Below, one piece after another: positions 11,279-28,328 of a DNA stretch of 32,426 nt. The stretch is from Alphaproteobacteria bacterium (lineage in GTDB: Bacteria > Pseudomonadota > Alphaproteobacteria > UBA6615). Numbering within the stretch: the first letter of the stretch is position 1; each line of letters opens with the position of its first letter. The notes below the pieces were generated by a model. It did not search any database. It saw only the letters and a list, made by a program, of their open reading frames with translations, and had not been told where the DNA came from. Position numbers and translations under genes: made by a program. The stretch spans positions 1 through 32,426 of the forward strand of contig PBMH01000025.1 in NCBI GenBank assembly GCA_002722515.1, read 5' to 3'.

Positions 11279-13284
11279 TTGCAGAGATCGGCCAGTATGT
11301 TCTGATCATTGCACTTGTACTTGCGGCCATTCAATCGGTCGTACCACTTTGGGGTGCGGCGCGTGACGAAGCTAGATTGATGGTAGTCGGCGACCGATCG
11401 GCGATCGCCCAGGCGGTCGCCCTGCTTATCGCATTCGCAGCGCTAACACATGGTTTCATCACGTCGGATTTTTCGCTAACAGTAGTGTTTCAGAATAGCC
11501 ACTCCCTAAAGCCGATGCTCTACAAGGTGAGTGGGGTGTGGGGAAACCATGAAGGTTCAATGCTGCTCTGGGTTCTGGTTCTGGCGCTTTTCAGTGCCAC
11601 CGTCGCGATCTTTGGACAGAACCTGCCCCCAACGCTGAAGGCCAGGGTCCTCGCAATTCAAGCGATGATTGGTTTTGCCTTCCTCGCCTTCATTATTTTC
11701 ACGTCGAACCCTTTCGCGCGGCTTAGTCCGGTACCACTTGACGGCACCGGCCTCAACCCGTTGCTGCAGGATCCCGGTCTCGCCTTCCACCCGCCGCTGC
11801 TCTATCTTGGCTATGTCGGCTTCTCTATGGCGTTCTCTTTCGCAATCGCCGCCCTGGTCGAGGGACGCGTTGATGCGGCATGGGGCCGCTGGGTCCGCCC
11901 TTGGACGCTCGCAGCTTGGGCTTTTCTGACCGGCGGCATCGCGTTGGGCAGCTGGTGGGCTTATTACGAACTAGGTTGGGGTGGTTGGTGGTTCTGGGAC
12001 CCAGTCGAGAACGCTAGCTTTATGCCATGGCTGTTCGGTACTGCGCTGCTACATTCGTCGGCCGTGGTCGAGAAGCGTGATACCCTGAAAAGCTGGACCA
12101 TCCTTCTCGCTATTCTAACTTTCTCCATGAGCCTTCTGGGAACCTTCTTGGTCCGATCCGGTGTCCTTACCTCCGTACACACCTTCGCAACTGATCCCGA
12201 GCGCGGCGTCTTCATACTTGCTATTCTCGCAATTGCCATCGGCGGCGCGCTAATTCTTTTTGCGTTGCGCGCACCCGGCATGAAGGGTGGTGGCCTGTTC
12301 GCCCCGGTCAGCCGTGAGGGTGCGCTGGTTGCCAACAACATGCTGCTAACACTCGCCGCGGTTACGGTTCTACTCGGTACTCTTTATCCACTGATACTAG
12401 AGGCCCTGTCCGGCGGCCAGTCCCGGGTCTCGGTCGGCCCACCGTTCTTCAACGCCACCTTCAGCCCAATCATGGTACCTCTGGTGCTGCTGGTCGCGCT
12501 GGGGCCGTTTCTGGCCTGGAAGCGCGGCAATCTGCGCATGGCATTCGGAAAACTAGTCCCGGCAGCAATCGGCGCATTCCTGGCGATCATTATCACATAC
12601 CTCATGGTGCCCGGTGGCCCCGCGCTCGCTCCCCTAGCGATGGGCCTCGCCGCATGGCTAGGAATTGGTGCGATTTCCGAGTGGAGCGGCCGTATCAGGC
12701 TGTTCAGATCTCACCCGAGAGACGCGCTGCGGCGAATTCACGAACTGCCTCGATCCGCCAGCGGGATGACTATGGCACATCTCGGCCTCGCCGTAATGAT
12801 CGTTGGAATAACCGGCTCGTCAGCCTGGCGCGCAGAGTTAGTTACCACCCTAGTCCCCGGACAAACCGCCGAGGGCCCGGGCTATGCCGTAACCCTGGAG
12901 TCTGTCATCGAGGGCCGCGGCGCCAACTATATTTTTGAACGCGGCACCCTCCTGATTACCGACGGTGGTCGGCCTGTCGCTAAACTGAACACGGAGCGGC
13001 GTTTCTTCCCCGTTGCCAACCAAACAACGACCGAGGCCGGTATTCGTACAACCATTTTTGGCGATCTCTACGGCGTAATCGGCGAGCGGGGACGCACGCC
13101 TGAAACAGCCGACGCCTGGACCGTAAAATTCTTCGTGAACCCTCTGGTGCCCTGGATCTGGCTCGGGGCCATGTTGATGGCGGTCGGCGGATTCCTGTCC
13201 CTGAGCGATCGGCGACATCGCGTCGGCGCGCCGCGCCGCGCAGCAACGGCCTTAACGAAACGGGTTCCGGACTCAGCCGAGTAA
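11275..13284 (+). CDS. ccmF: Heme lyase subunit CcmF
   Basis: GVWGNHEGSMLLW, WAYYELGWGGWWFWDPVENASFMPWL (WWD), 669 aa polytopic. Confidence 0.96.
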   Translation: MIAEIGQYVLIIALVLAAIQSVVPLWGAARDEARLMVVGDRSAIAQAVALLIAFAALTHGFITSDFSLTVVFQNSHSLKPMLYKVSGVWGNHEGSMLLWVLVLALFSATVAIFGQNLPPTLKARVLAIQAMIGFAFLAFIIFTSNPFARLSPVPLDGTGLNPLLQDPGLAFHPPLLYLGYVGFSMAFSFAIAALVEGRVDAAWGRWVRPWTLAAWAFLTGGIALGSWWAYYELGWGGWWFWDPVENASFMPWLFGTALLHSSAVVEKRDTLKSWTILLAILTFSMSLLGTFLVRSGVLTSVHTFATDPERGVFILAILAIAIGGALILFALRAPGMKGGGLFAPVSREGALVANNMLLTLAAVTVLLGTLYPLILEALSGGQSRVSVGPPFFNATFSPIMVPLVLLVALGPFLAWKRGNLRMAFGKLVPAAIGAFLAIIITYLMVPGGPALAPLAMGLAAWLGIGAISEWSGRIRLFRSHPRDALRRIHELPRSASGMTMAHLGLAVMIVGITGSSAWRAELVTTLVPGQTAEGPGYAVTLESVIEGRGANYIFERGTLLITDGGRPVAKLNTERRFFPVANQTTTEAGIRTTIFGDLYGVIGERGRTPETADAWTVKFFVNPLVPWIWLGAMLMAVGGFLSLSDRRHRVGAPRRAATALTKRVPDSAE

Positions 13285-22724: not shown

Positions 22725-24521
22725 TTACGGAATGAGCGGAAGCATCAGGTAAGCCGCGCGCACGGGACCTGAATGTAAGGTCACATTGTTATCGAATATC
22801 TTTTTCGGCCTATCGCGCGGATCATCGTGCAGAAACGGCCCGCAACCGGTCAGCGGCTTGGCGAAGTTCGACAGCGTGAACGGGTCGTCCTCTGTCTTGG
22901 CGCCCGGCCAGACATAGTCCTTCCCACGCACGGTAAGCGCGAGGCGATACCCAGCCGGCACAACGATTCCGGTCGGATGCAGATCAATATCGAGTTCATA
23001 GACTGAACCGGGCCTAAGTGGCTGTTTCTCGTCGTGGCTGTGCCACGGCCAGTACGGCTTCGACTTCTTCGGGTCTAGCTTGCGGTGCGAGGCGCGCAGC
23101 CAGCCCTGCGCGATCGGCGTGTGCGGATCTACCGTTCCCTTGAACGTAACCTCCGTCAGGTCGGGTGTGAACAGCCGCAAGACAAGAAACATGTCAGCAT
23201 CGATGGTATCCGACGAAACAAACAACTTAGCTGCAATCGGTCCGCACAGCTCCGTATCAACCTGCATCGGCGGCATCGTGAATGTAATTCCATCACTGCT
23301 CATCGCCTTGTAGGCGATGTTAGCGTTTTTCGTCACCTTCCGTTTCGCTAACGTCATGTTCTCTGGGTCGAGATAGAACTTTGTCCACTTGGTACGCTTT
23401 AGCGGCCATTCGTTCTCGCCACGCAGCGCGACACGCTCGCCCGGCCGGCGCACATTGAGCATCACCTTCGGCTTTCGGTTCCAACCATTTTTCTCACCCT
23501 TCAGGAAATAGCCAAAAAACTGCTTCTGCAGGTCACGACCGTAAGGCGTGTAGAAATGCGTCCAATGCTCCAGACTGTGACACTCCAGCCATTTCTGCTT
23601 CGACCCGGCCTGTAGAAAACCGACATAATTTCCGCGAGGATGCAGCGGCTGGCCCGCCCAGCTCGCACAACTCAATAGCGGCACCTCGATCTTCGAGAGA
23701 TCGGCAGTGCGCTCTGCATAAAACGGGTCATTTTCCAGCGGGCGCGAATAATAGTCGCGGTCTAGATCAGAACGGTTTTTCTTGAGTTCCTTGTCGGAAA
23801 CCGAGGCCGGGCCCGCCGCCAGTTCGCCCGTGACGCGGCTCTTGTGGCCGCGCGAACCAACGCCGTGCTGCACCGTCTTGATTTGCAGGTTGTACCAGTG
23901 CCCCAGGAAGCTGGTGTAGATACCGCCATGGTGAGAAAGCTCGCGGTAGAAGTCACTGAAGCCTTCCCAGACGCACATCGCCGCGAGGTGCTTAGGTCGC
24001 AGAGCCGCAACCTGCCACTGATTGACCGCATAGTACGAAATTCCTGCGAGCCCAACCTTGCCGTTTGACCACTCCTGCGCACCCGCCCACTCGATACAAT
24101 CATGGAAGTCCTTGGTCTCGCGCGGCGACCAGTGGTCGATATTACCGGGCGAACGACCTGCGCCGCGGCTATCGACACGCACACAGACATATCCGTCGGG
24201 CACCCATTGCTCGGGGTCGACAACCTCCCAGCTCTGGTGGATGTTAGTCGAGTCTGCGATCGCGTCAGGGTGTTCCGCCGAGAAGTTTTCCCAAACGCTC
24301 GGATAACCGTCCTGGATGGCGAGGTCCTTGGCATAGGGACCGTGCGACAGGATTACCGGGTAGTTCGCTACCTTTCGAGGCCTATAGACATTGGCGCGAA
24401 GCACAAGTCCATCATCCATCTCGATAGGTACGTCGAAATCGATTCGCATGCCGTCGCGCACTTGGCTCCACGACCCGTCCTTGGCCTTTTTCTTCGGCCT
24501 GCGTAGCCCCATCTTTGCCAT
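22725..24521 (-). CDS. CocE/NonD family hydrolase (X-Pro dipeptidyl-peptidase S15-like)
   Basis: DGLVLRANVYRPRKVANYPVILSHGPY, VCVRVDSRGAGRSPG, GKVGLAGISYYAVNQWQVAALRPKHLAAMCVWEG. Confidence 0.93.
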   Translation of the reverse strand: MAKMGLRRPKKKAKDGSWSQVRDGMRIDFDVPIEMDDGLVLRANVYRPRKVANYPVILSHGPYAKDLAIQDGYPSVWENFSAEHPDAIADSTNIHQSWEVVDPEQWVPDGYVCVRVDSRGAGRSPGNIDHWSPRETKDFHDCIEWAGAQEWSNGKVGLAGISYYAVNQWQVAALRPKHLAAMCVWEGFSDFYRELSHHGGIYTSFLGHWYNLQIKTVQHGVGSRGHKSRVTGELAAGPASVSDKELKKNRSDLDRDYYSRPLENDPFYAERTADLSKIEVPLLSCASWAGQPLHPRGNYVGFLQAGSKQKWLECHSLEHWTHFYTPYGRDLQKQFFGYFLKGEKNGWNRKPKVMLNVRRPGERVALRGENEWPLKRTKWTKFYLDPENMTLAKRKVTKNANIAYKAMSSDGITFTMPPMQVDTELCGPIAAKLFVSSDTIDADMFLVLRLFTPDLTEVTFKGTVDPHTPIAQGWLRASHRKLDPKKSKPYWPWHSHDEKQPLRPGSVYELDIDLHPTGIVVPAGYRLALTVRGKDYVWPGAKTEDDPFTLSNFAKPLTGCGPFLHDDPRDRPKKIFDNNVTLHSGPVRAAYLMLPLIP

Positions 24522-24783: not shown

Positions 24784-24859
24784 TGGTGGAGCCGAGGGGA
24801 ATCGAACCCCTGACCTCTACGGTGCGAACGTAGCGCTCTCCCAACTGAGCTACGGCCCC
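24784..24859 (-). tRNA. tRNA-Ala(CGC), left copy
   Basis: GGGGCCGTAGCTCAGTTGGGAGAGCGCTACGTTCGCACCGTAGAGGTCAGGGGTTCGATTCCCCTCGGCTCCACCA folds as a cloverleaf; anticodon loop TTCGCAC; CCA encoded. Confidence 0.95.
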
Positions 24860-24869
24860 ACCGATGCCG
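24784..24869. repeat. Left 86-bp direct repeat (tRNA plus 10 bp flank), one mismatch to 28024..28109
   Basis: Only difference is G at 24822 versus T at 28062. Confidence 0.95.
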
Positions 24870-24881
24870 GAAACCGTCGCC

Positions 24882-25481
24882 TCAGTCGGTCTGCGATTCC
24901 GCGCGCAGGCTCTCCATCAACAATTCAGTGTTGCGGATCAGCATCGCCCGGTAGCCCGCCCGGCTGACCAGCTTGGGATCGATCGCGTAGGCGGCGTGAA
25001 TGCCGACCAGCAGGCTGTGGATCGTGCCGGCCGCCTCGAACGCGCGTTTCCTGTCCACGCCCGTTTCCTTCATGATCTCGTCACGGATGAGGTTGCGGAC
25101 ACGCGCGTGATACGACGCGTAGACAGACGACGTATCCTTGTCGCTCCGGCCGTCGATCATCAGCTTCAGGAAGAACTCCGCAACGACCGGATCCCGGAAC
25201 CGGTCGTCGAGGCGTTTGACCAGTTCCATGACATTCTCGAACCGCTCCTCGGGCAGCGAACCCCATACGCGCTTGCGGCTTTCCTCGAGACAGACCTGCA
25301 ACAGCCCAGCCTTGGTCTTGAAATGAAAGAACAGCGTCGCCTGGCTGTAACCGGCGCGCTCGGCAATGCTCTTGGTCGATGCGGCCGCGTAACCGCGTTC
25401 GCCGAACTCCCGGAGCGCTGAGTCGATGATCTTCGCCCGCGCCCTCTCGGGGTTCTTCGAAACGCCTTTCACCCGGGCCAT
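24882..25481 (-). CDS. TetR/AcrR family transcriptional regulator
   Basis: ARAKIIDSALREFGERGYAAASTKSIAERAGYSQATLFFHFKTKAGLL N-terminal HTH; start set at MARVKG (25481). Confidence 0.93.
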   Translation of the reverse strand: MARVKGVSKNPERARAKIIDSALREFGERGYAAASTKSIAERAGYSQATLFFHFKTKAGLLQVCLEESRKRVWGSLPEERFENVMELVKRLDDRFRDPVVAEFFLKLMIDGRSDKDTSSVYASYHARVRNLIRDEIMKETGVDRKRAFEAAGTIHSLLVGIHAAYAIDPKLVSRAGYRAMLIRNTELLMESLRAESQTD

Positions 25482-25602
25482 ACGACTGCAATCCCCTGTT
25501 TTATCGGTGGCACCGACCTTGAAGACAGGCGCCGCGGAATGCAACGCCGGCCGCTCGCCCCGGCGCAATGAACCGCATTGACCCGACCAGATCGGGCTGT
25601 TA

Positions 25603-25634
25603 CTGATTATACACTCAAATAAGTATCTAATCAG
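25603..25634. promoter_or_regulatory. Putative TetR-family operator palindrome
   Basis: CTGATTATACACT-caaata-AGTATCTAATCAG: arms match at 11 of 13 positions; lies in the divergent intergenic region 8 nt before the MBL ATG. Confidence 0.6.
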
Positions 25635-25642
25635 GTAATGCC

Positions 25643-26617
25643 ATGGCCGACAACCTGCAACCCCTACAAGAAGACGACCCCCGTCTCTTCCAAATGGGCG
25701 ATGCCTACGCATTCGCCACCTATCCCGTCTGCGGTGTGGTGTTCACCGACGAAGGTGCGGTCGCCATCGACGGTCCAATGGCCCCGGCCACGGGGCGCCA
25801 GTGGCGCGAATTCATCGAGACCCGCGTGCCCGTGAAGTTTCACATCCTGTGCGAGCACCACGAGGACCACACCGCGTGCTGTTCCGTCCTAGGTGCCGAC
25901 ACGCTGGTCTCCTCGGAAATCACGGCTTTCGAGCTCGCGCGATGTGCGAGCGGCTCGACCGACGACATGCGCCAGACCCTCAGGGGCTGGGGACGCAACC
26001 GCTTCTTCTCCGAAGAACTGGTCGAGGACTACGAGGTTCGCAGGCCGGACATGACCTACGCCGAGCGGCTTTCCTTTACCCTCGGCGGCAAGGACTTCGT
26101 GGTGGTCGAGGCGCCCGGGCACACGCGCGGTTCCTCGATCGTGCATGCCTTGGACGACCGCGTGGCCTTCGTCGCCGATGCCGTGTTTCCCGGCACCTGT
26201 GCCCCGCCGGCCCAGTCCTGCGATCCCTGGGCATGGTTCCGGACTCTCGGCATGCTCGAGGCCCTCGACGTGGACTGGTACGTGCCGGGGCATGGCGACC
26301 CGTTCGACCGGAGCGAACTCGATTCCACCCGGAAAGGCCTGCACACGCTGGTCGATTCCGTCCGCGACTGGAAGCGCCAGGGCTGGTCGCGCGAGCGCGT
26401 CATGGCCGAGGGCGACTGTTTCGACCGTTCACTGCGGAAACCCTACCGGGGCGCCGACGACGTCCCGCCCGGGCTCAAGCTCATCGCACCGAAGATCCAG
26501 GCCGAGAGCCTCGGCGCCGTCTACGACTATCTCGACGAACACCCAGCCGGCTCCCACCGGCGGCATGTCGACGCCGAGGCCAACTACAACGAGATTTTCG
26601 ATCAATGCTCCGCCTAG
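25643..26617 (+). CDS. MBL-fold metallo-hydrolase
   Basis: FHILCEHHEDHTACCSV, VVVEAPGHTRGSSIVHALDDRVAFVADAVFPG, DVDWYVPGHGDPFDRSEL. Confidence 0.88.
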   Translation: MADNLQPLQEDDPRLFQMGDAYAFATYPVCGVVFTDEGAVAIDGPMAPATGRQWREFIETRVPVKFHILCEHHEDHTACCSVLGADTLVSSEITAFELARCASGSTDDMRQTLRGWGRNRFFSEELVEDYEVRRPDMTYAERLSFTLGGKDFVVVEAPGHTRGSSIVHALDDRVAFVADAVFPGTCAPPAQSCDPWAWFRTLGMLEALDVDWYVPGHGDPFDRSELDSTRKGLHTLVDSVRDWKRQGWSRERVMAEGDCFDRSLRKPYRGADDVPPGLKLIAPKIQAESLGAVYDYLDEHPAGSHRRHVDAEANYNEIFDQCSA

Positions 26618-27537
26618 GCTCTGCATACGTCGGCAAGGATGCGCGCGTGGTCGCCCAAGACCACGAACACGACGATTTCGTGAACCTGTCGCGACTGTGC
26701 GACGACCTCGGCGCGCTAGAAAGCCTCGACGACCTGCTCGACCTGCCCGATGACGCGGTCGCGACCTGCATTTCACGCGCGCGCGAGGCGGCGCCCGACC
26801 TGGCGGCAGGGGACGTCGCCCTGCACTGTCCGCTGGTCCGACCGGGACGGGTCCGCGACGGCGGCATCGTCATCGAACATCTCACCCCGGCCTTCGAACA
26901 GATGCGGGACCGGCTGCTGGCGATGGGCACGGAGAAGGCGGCGGACGCCGCCAACGCGCTCGACGCACAGATCGCCACGATTAACGAGCGGCCGTTCACG
27001 ACCGGCGACCGCGACCTCTCGACCCTGTCGGGGCCATTTGACGAGATCATCAACCCGGGCGGCGAGATCGATCTCGAGACGGAACTCGCCTGCGTGATCC
27101 GCAGGGCCGACGGCGGGCAACCGGAGATCTTCGGCTACACGCTCTACAACGACTGGACGCTGCGGGACATGCAGATCGAGGTCTGGCGCGAAACCCGCAG
27201 CCTGTATGGCGGCGCGAAGAACTTCGCCATGTCGAACACCTTCGGGCCGATGGTCGTGCTGGCTAGCGACTGCGGCGATCCGATGCGGCTCGCGATGCAG
27301 GCCGAGGTGAACGGAGAAATCGTGGCGTCGGGCGACCTGTCGGGGGCGGTGCGTACCTTCCCCGAGGCGCTTGAGCATCTCTTCCGGGGCGACGAGATCA
27401 CCAGCCACGAGCTGTTCGGCACCGGCACCATTCTCGGCGGATGCCTGTTCGAACAGGGCAGGAGACTGCCGAAGGACGCAACCGTCCTCCTGAGCTGCCC
27501 CGCCATCGGCGTGCTCGAGAACCGGGTCCGGGGCTAA
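26605..27537 (+). CDS. Fumarylacetoacetate hydrolase (FAH) family protein
   Basis: EIINPGGEIDLETELACVIRRA, GYTLYNDWTLRDMQ, NTFGPMVVLASD, SHELFGTGTILGGCLFEQGRRLPKDATV; start at 26605 overlaps the MBL gene by 13 nt. Confidence 0.87.
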   Translation: MLRLGSAYVGKDARVVAQDHEHDDFVNLSRLCDDLGALESLDDLLDLPDDAVATCISRAREAAPDLAAGDVALHCPLVRPGRVRDGGIVIEHLTPAFEQMRDRLLAMGTEKAADAANALDAQIATINERPFTTGDRDLSTLSGPFDEIINPGGEIDLETELACVIRRADGGQPEIFGYTLYNDWTLRDMQIEVWRETRSLYGGAKNFAMSNTFGPMVVLASDCGDPMRLAMQAEVNGEIVASGDLSGAVRTFPEALEHLFRGDEITSHELFGTGTILGGCLFEQGRRLPKDATVLLSCPAIGVLENRVRG

Positions 27538-27539
27538 TC

Positions 27540-27926
27540 ATGGAGACGTCCGACGACGGGGGGAACGAAGCCCGGGCGAAAGGCCTCGCGATCTACACAG
27601 AAATGTTCGGCGAAGACAGGGCGCGGAAGCGGCTCGAAAGTGACGATCCGGACGAGCAGCGCCTGACCGAACTGTTGCTCGAACACGCCTACGGGTCGAT
27701 CTGGAGCAACACGCGGCTGTCACGCCGGGAGCGCTCTCTCATCACCATTGCCCTGCTGGCCGGCCTAGGCCGCAACGACGAGCTCGAATCGCATATCGGC
27801 GCCGCCCTCAGGAACGGCTGCGAGATGTCGGAACTGCACGAGGTGATGGTCCATGTCGGCCTCTATTGCGGCTTCCCGGCAACCATCAGCGGGCACAAGG
27901 CCCTGAAGAAGTCGGAGCAAATCTAG
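27540..27926 (+). CDS. Carboxymuconolactone decarboxylase family protein
   Basis: YTEMFGEDRARKR...LTELLLEHAYGSIWSNTRLSRRERSLITIALLAGLGRNDELESHIGAALRNGCEMSELHEVMVHVGLYCGFPA; ATG 27540 follows the FAH stop. Confidence 0.93.
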   Translation: METSDDGGNEARAKGLAIYTEMFGEDRARKRLESDDPDEQRLTELLLEHAYGSIWSNTRLSRRERSLITIALLAGLGRNDELESHIGAALRNGCEMSELHEVMVHVGLYCGFPATISGHKALKKSEQI

Positions 27927-28023
27927 GTCGAGGTGAACGTTCCCACATCGCGATCCCGCAGGAACGGATCGGCCGGGCGGTCGGGGTTTTTGCCCGAAAC
28001 CGGGTTGGAATATTCGAGAGGTT

Positions 28024-28099
28024 TGGTGGAGCCGAGGGGAATCGAACCCCTGACCTCTACGTTGCGAACGTAGCGCTCTCCCAACTGAGCTACGGCCCC
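28024..28099 (-). tRNA. tRNA-Ala(CGC), right copy
   Basis: GGGGCCGTAGCTCAGTTGGGAGAGCGCTACGTTCGCAACGTAGAGGTCAGGGGTTCGATTCCCCTCGGCTCCACCA; loop TTCGCAA; identical to the left copy except position 38. Confidence 0.95.
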
Positions 28100-28109
28100 A
28101 CCGATGCCG
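28024..28109. repeat. Right 86-bp direct repeat (tRNA plus 10 bp flank)
   Basis: See 24784..24869; offset exactly 3,240 bp. Confidence 0.95.
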
Positions 28110-28328
28110 AAATCGGCCCGCGCGCACACGCCTACTGCTAGGTACGAGCTTCACGACGCGGCGGAAATATGGGTGCGGGGCCACGCCCCTGTCAAGTCGA
28201 CCGCAGAAACACGTGCATGGTTAAATGACCGCGGCATTACTGGACAGTTGGCCTGTCGCTAGCTAGTCTCAATACCTTACTCACAACCGTTTTCGGCGCC
28301 CTGCGCCGCACCTGCGGATCGAATAAGT

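Follow-up and report, generated by a model that had tools for sequence, protein, structure and literature searches.

A candidate tRNA-targeted gene cassette bracketed by two complete tRNA-Ala(CGC) genes in an uncultured alphaproteobacterial lineage

The 32,426-bp window, by which we mean the whole stretch of DNA analyzed here, comes from a fragmented draft genome of the Alphaproteobacteria (referred to as G000; 58 contigs, 83% complete). Across the whole window, ARAGORN predicts exactly two tRNAs, both tRNA-Ala(CGC) and both in the same orientation on the minus strand (Table 1). A repeat finder returns a single direct repeat for the window, 89 nt long at 98% identity and with a spacing of 3,240. 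A preliminary description of this DNA, made without database searches, had placed two nearly identical complete tRNA-Ala(CGC) genes at the borders of a 3,240-bp unit, and both programs agree with it. Starting at the CCA, a stretch of 86 bp comprising the whole tRNA and 10 bp of 5' flank matches bar one base, just as had been described, and further upstream the similarity is gone within a few bases. The sole mismatch (24822 G, 28062 T) lies at tRNA position 38. Infernal scores the two copies at 69.0 and 70.8 bits, which marks both as good tRNAs, and both are full length, in keeping with the earlier remark that the entire tRNA is duplicated and not a 3' fragment of it. A repeat of this kind is far beyond what chance would produce. 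Since the tRNAs lie on the minus strand, the DNA between them follows the 3' end of the right (28 kb) copy and precedes the 5' end of the left copy. The 5' end of the left tRNA is 22 bp from the stop codon of the neighboring TetR gene, and the leader that is common to the family accounts for only about 15 bp. When the 51 tRNAs of the same genome were used as probes, the only other tRNA fragments in the window or beside the cassette of the relative G001 were chance matches of 12 to 14 nt. A 32-amino-acid reading frame in the right junction was considered as a gene truncated by the tRNA and was dropped, as no relative of it turned up in 385 genomes.

TABLE 1 Features of the tRNA-Ala(CGC) unit and its borders, in window positions
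Feature	Position	Strand	Remarks
Left tRNA-Ala(CGC)	24784..24859	-	Complete, 76 bp including CCA; C38; without recognizable promoter; ARAGORN, Infernal
Leader of left copy	24860..24874	-	GTTTCCGGCATCGGT (minus strand); resembles leaders of family relatives
TetR-family regulator	24882..25481	-	PF00440 (TetR_N), E=1.8e-16
AT-rich imperfect palindrome between TetR and MBL	25600..25639	.	Putative operator/promoter; recognizable in G001, G022, and G007
MBL-fold hydrolase	25643..26617	+	PF00753 (Lactamase_B), E=7e-9
FAH-family hydrolase/decarboxylase	26605..27537	+	PF01557 (FAA_hydrolase), E=2e-23; start overlaps MBL end
Carboxymuconolactone-decarboxylase (CMD) family, PcaC-like	27540..27926	+	PF02627
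Cargo-side junction, CMD to 3' end of right tRNA	27927..28023	.	97 bp; from sequence
Right tRNA-Ala(CGC), native copy	28024..28099	-	76 bp; A38; ARAGORN, YggT/FolD synteny, identity to tRNA of several relatives
Duplicated leader, right copy	28100..28109	-	10 bp
Promoter of native tRNA, TTGACA-N18-CATATT	28165..28195	-	65-96 bp upstream of right tRNA

Four genes lie between the two tRNAs, and Pfam agrees with their previous reading as TetR, MBL, FAH, and CMD. Their third codon positions are much richer in G and C than the surroundings, as the preliminary description had suspected: GC3 is 0.835, 0.834, 0.865, and 0.837 for the four genes in that order (0.83-0.87), versus a mean of 0.641 for the 18 other genes of the window (standard deviation, 0.035; maximum, 0.701; lowest, about 0.57). 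The composition of the cassette is therefore foreign to the window. Because the starts of the MBL, FAH, and CMD genes overlap or adjoin (25643-27926, plus strand), the three probably form one operon. The FAH protein has PDB relatives among HpcE/HpaG, of the fumarylacetoacetate-hydrolase type, and the CMD protein is nearest to PcaC, scoring 90 bits against TIGR02425, which is under that family's cutoff of 155.7. The MBL protein is distantly related to the SoxH-related quinoprotein-relay hydrolases. Combined with these affinities, the divergently oriented TetR gene and the conserved palindrome point to a small, regulated catabolic operon that is likely induced by its substrate. No integrase is encoded in the 3,240-bp unit according to its open reading frames and Pfam, as had been noted from inspection, and no recombinase, recombination directionality factor (RDF), or arm-type sites were recognized for the unit. 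The 83%-complete genome yielded a single tyrosine-recombinase domain, on a different contig.

The two tRNA copies can be told apart by their surroundings. We compared relatives of the same genus and family and, in 17 of them, inspected the DNA surrounding the best match to tRNA-Ala(CGC). Every one carries a single intact tRNA-Ala(CGC) with A38, like the right copy, and this gene adjoins YggT and/or FolD wherever annotation or search could tell. The promoter motif upstream of the right copy recurs upstream of the tRNA in G001 to G006, G011, G021, G022, and G023 with slightly varying spacing, and its position matches that in same-genus relatives and in most family relatives. No promoter of this type was found upstream of the left copy. 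The promoter, the YggT/FolD synteny, and the A38 shared with the 17 relatives identify the right copy as native and expressed. The left copy is complete and probably either silent or transcribed by read-through from TetR. The resulting polarity is that of a putative tRNA-targeted insertion 3' of the active gene.

Among the relatives, the context of tRNA-Ala(CGC) with YggT/FolD is kept, and the DNA 3' of the tRNA is strongly variable between genomes. In three of them, the cargo found there is unrelated to the window cassette and is closed by a 3' fragment of tRNA-Ala in the same orientation: 23 exact nt plus flank at a distance of 10.3 kb in G006, 23 nt with one mismatch 2.3 kb away in G011, and 18 exact nt 14.4 kb away in G013. 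The cargo of G006 (TetR, a TRAP transporter, an amidase, and a nitrile hydratase) is another regulated catabolic set. A 22-nt probe of the tRNA 3' end, allowing up to 5 mismatches, matched only these three fragments and the tRNAs themselves; the shuffled set gave one match in total. At 4 kb from its active gene, G002 holds the decayed 5' end of a second tRNA copy, together with some 125 bp of 5' flank that resembles the native one; none of 1,000 shuffles was as good. In G012, the tRNA on the YggT side is cut after about 42 nt and an intact tRNA, without the usual promoter, lies 17.7 kb off, with a broken tyrosine integrase between the two. No intact integrase domain was found in the hot-spot stretches of G002, G006, G011, G012, and G013. 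The T-arm sequence of tRNA-Ala(CGC) in G002 (L033), G004 (L035), G012 (L043), and G018 (L046) deviates from that of the other relatives, which suggests that 3' halves of the gene may have been exchanged by past insertions.

Several further observations concern these stretches and the source genome. The G012 island (L043, G012:C3:34000-53900) belongs to a less common type, in which the promoter side holds a 5' fragment of the tRNA and the intact tRNA is at the far end; its broken integrase sits near the intact copy. In G006 (L037, near 11895-11920), the anticodon-loop sequence GTTCGCAA precedes the displaced 3' fragment, as if a longer 3' half might have had its middle deleted. To the left of the unit in the window, a CocE/NonD (S15) hydrolase gene (22725-24521, minus strand) has its closest relatives in G012 (85%), G019 (77%), and G009 (74%) and reaches only 66% within its own genus; it is probably a further acquired gene in the tRNA-Ala hot spot. 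No tRNA genes were found beside its close relatives within those loci. Elsewhere in G000, about 19 tRNA genes are packed into 3 kb (G000:C4:13907-16925, L087), with many anticodons and several duplicating tRNAs that are single elsewhere, an arrangement that resembles the tRNA arrays of phages or mobile elements. Contigs C21, C32, and C35 of G000 end at a tRNA gene or a few dozen bases from one and may reflect strain variation at further tRNA insertion sites.

Close relatives of the MBL gene, or the cassette itself, occur in 4 of 24 family genomes. Among 385 genomes sampled across the class, we found one MBL relative besides that of the window, from the same family, and a pattern scan of GTDB contigs returned only the same three relatives (G001, G022, and G007). 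No MBL relatives were found on plasmids or viral contigs. G022, which belongs to another genus, has TetR-MBL-FAH-CMD at the same locus, at the far end of the interval and 3.3 kb from its single tRNA. As this stretch of G022 is itself 66% GC, the composition of the cassette is not unusual there; it remains foreign by GC3 in G000, G001, and G007. A leader-like stretch after the TetR gene of G022, considered as a trace of a cassette that once touched the tRNA, was not significant (216 of 2,000 shuffles). In G001, the cassette lies on a 6.6-kb contig without a tRNA, and the tRNA locus lies on a separate contig without the cassette.

The MBL gene also sits at a different tRNA in another genus. In a stretch of G007 with 40% GC, MBL and a truncated FAH gene lie directly 3' of tRNA-Arg(CCT), and a piece of this tRNA, from its 3' half, marks their far end. 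Next comes a second unit, which holds transporter genes and ends in another tRNA-Arg 3' fragment, after which synteny with G019 resumes and so delimits the inserted DNA. We dropped a reading in which an element bringing its own tRNA had split the native one, since the DNA on either side of the complete tRNA-Arg matches G019, which identifies that gene as native. The MBL proteins of G007 and the window share 82% amino acid identity, versus 62% for ccmF, 69% for FolD, and 56% for the helicase. This identity and the tRNA-Arg position indicate that the MBL part moved between genera and now stands behind two different tRNA genes.

Taken together, we consider it probable that the locus is a tRNA-targeted gene cassette in an additive flexible genomic island, with the crossover inside the tRNA gene. 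The incoming DNA would have consisted of TetR-MBL-FAH-CMD and one copy of tRNA-Ala(CGC) with a leader of about 15 bp. In the simplest form, we infer a 3,240-bp circle and a single crossover within the resident tRNA-Ala(CGC), together with the direction of transfer. After such a crossover, the right tRNA would keep the host promoter and 5' half and have its 3' end joined to the cassette, and the left tRNA would lie between the cassette, on its 5' side, and the former downstream DNA, on its 3' side. The outcome would be an active tRNA that is preserved and a displaced copy without a promoter. The crossover could be the work of a tyrosine recombinase in trans, which either was later lost or came from another element, or else of homologous recombination at the tRNA. 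Both routes predict an identical product (the homology being about 90 bp), and the sequence cannot separate them. The anticodon loop is one place where integrases cross over (PMC4383910); the lone mismatch of the repeat falls in this loop and proves nothing about the crossover site. The preliminary description had already proposed tRNA-associated acquired DNA, which the single tRNA of the relatives and the foreign composition bear out, and its suggestion of homologous exchange of a tRNA-carrying circle, or of transfer in trans, would be consistent with this anatomy. An arrangement shared by all relatives, which it had named as the sign of an ancestral state, was not seen in the empty-site and presence/absence comparisons, which are between species only (the nearest relatives have about 86% ccmF amino acid identity). 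It had missed the promoterless state of the left copy, the hot spot with similar brackets, and the MBL gene at a different tRNA in another genus.

Several points speak against insertion of a cassette at the tRNA. The comparison offers no strict empty site within the species, and no recombinase, RDF, or arm-type sites were recognized. In integrase islands, the displaced part is a fragment, and a complete copy of the tRNA is uncommon. The G022 cassette with its single tRNA makes old vertical residence possible. The cassette genes could be old residents ancestral to the two genera, in which case the left tRNA would have arisen later and independently, by a local duplication that placed it between the TetR gene and the gene for the CocE/NonD hydrolase. 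The position of the four genes in G022, within the same Amidohydro-tRNA interval, agrees with this, as do the identities of G000 to G001 and G022, which are core-like for the cassette (MBL, 92 and 86%; FAH, 80 and 77%) when set beside ccmF (86 and 80%) and FolD (81 and 78%), so that recent transfer among these three genomes is not supported. However, the cassette is absent from 5/5 other same-genus genomes and from most of the other genus searched, the G001 cassette and tRNA locus are on separate contigs, and the foreign GC3 persists in three genomes. A chance duplication is also unlikely to coincide exactly with the border of the cassette and to have its repeat stop at the CCA. We regard old residence as rather unlikely.

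A special case of insertion at the tRNA, with which our confidence overlaps, is a degenerate tycheposon-like element in which a tyrosine recombinase moved the cargo with a full tRNA at its end and the recombinase part was then lost. The complete tRNA at the border, the tRNA target, and the metabolic cargo would all fit, but the unit has no recombinase, the one match in the recovered genome is on another contig, the 3.2-kb length is below the 4 to 200 kb quoted for tycheposons (PMC10872708), and we found no second element of the same architecture; we hold it to be unlikely. More doubtful still is that the unit could be a minimal recombinase-free mobile circle, made of a complete tRNA and cargo, with the tRNA as its only mobility signal, which enters and leaves the chromosomes of relatives by crossover at the tRNA. 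If so, species of the family could swap catabolic genes without a dedicated integrase. A chimeric assembly in which two strains or species were joined at the tRNA repeat, conceivable for a fragmented draft with several contig ends at tRNA genes, is highly improbable, as the copies differ at position 38 and in both flanks, host-like synteny on both outer sides would call for two false joins, and an intact related cassette occupies the same locus in G022.

Read as a cassette inserted at the tRNA, the locus offers a clean case, in an uncultured lineage, of cargo that is exchanged at tRNA genes and has no integrase, and the relatives display stages in the decay of the bracket, from full copy to half, 3' end, and remnant. 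It also makes testable whether small cargo circles can recombine with nothing more than a tRNA gene as their site.

These features can be compared with known systems. As in classical tRNA islands, the active tRNA is on the 5' side and displaced tRNA DNA lies at the far end in the same orientation. However, the Islander procedure accepts only islands with an integrase and a fragment of the tRNA, and it rejects matches inside a full-length tRNA gene (PMC4383910), whereas the unit in the window encodes no tyrosine integrase and its displaced piece is a full-length tRNA; the locus therefore fails this filter on both counts, which is the main significance of the full-length repeat. Standard island finders with these two requirements would overlook full-length duplicates, so that cassettes of this type may be undercounted. 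Tycheposons have tRNAs at their border, a tyrosine recombinase, and lengths of 4 to 200 kb (PMC10872708). The unit resembles them in its bordering tRNA gene and metabolic cargo but lacks a tyrosine recombinase and is smaller. By the features tested, the locus is neither an integrase-encoding island nor a tycheposon. In additive flexible genomic islands, as described for Alteromonas, "Ca. Actinomarinales," and Methylophilaceae, cassettes are inserted one after another at a tRNA and are marked by direct repeats, and the repeats are parts of the tRNA, 52 nt in Alteromonas and the last 20 nt in Methylophilaceae (PMC4119200, PMC7771536, PMC10872708). The likeness here is close: a conserved tRNA, with the same locus and context in relatives and differing content; variable metabolic cassettes 3' of it; and a direct repeat of the tRNA at the far end of the cassette. 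The difference is that the 86-bp repeat holds the whole tRNA and 10 bp of leader, whereas parts are repeated there. The kind of cassette is thus already known, and its variation is the full-length, promoterless duplicate of the tRNA.
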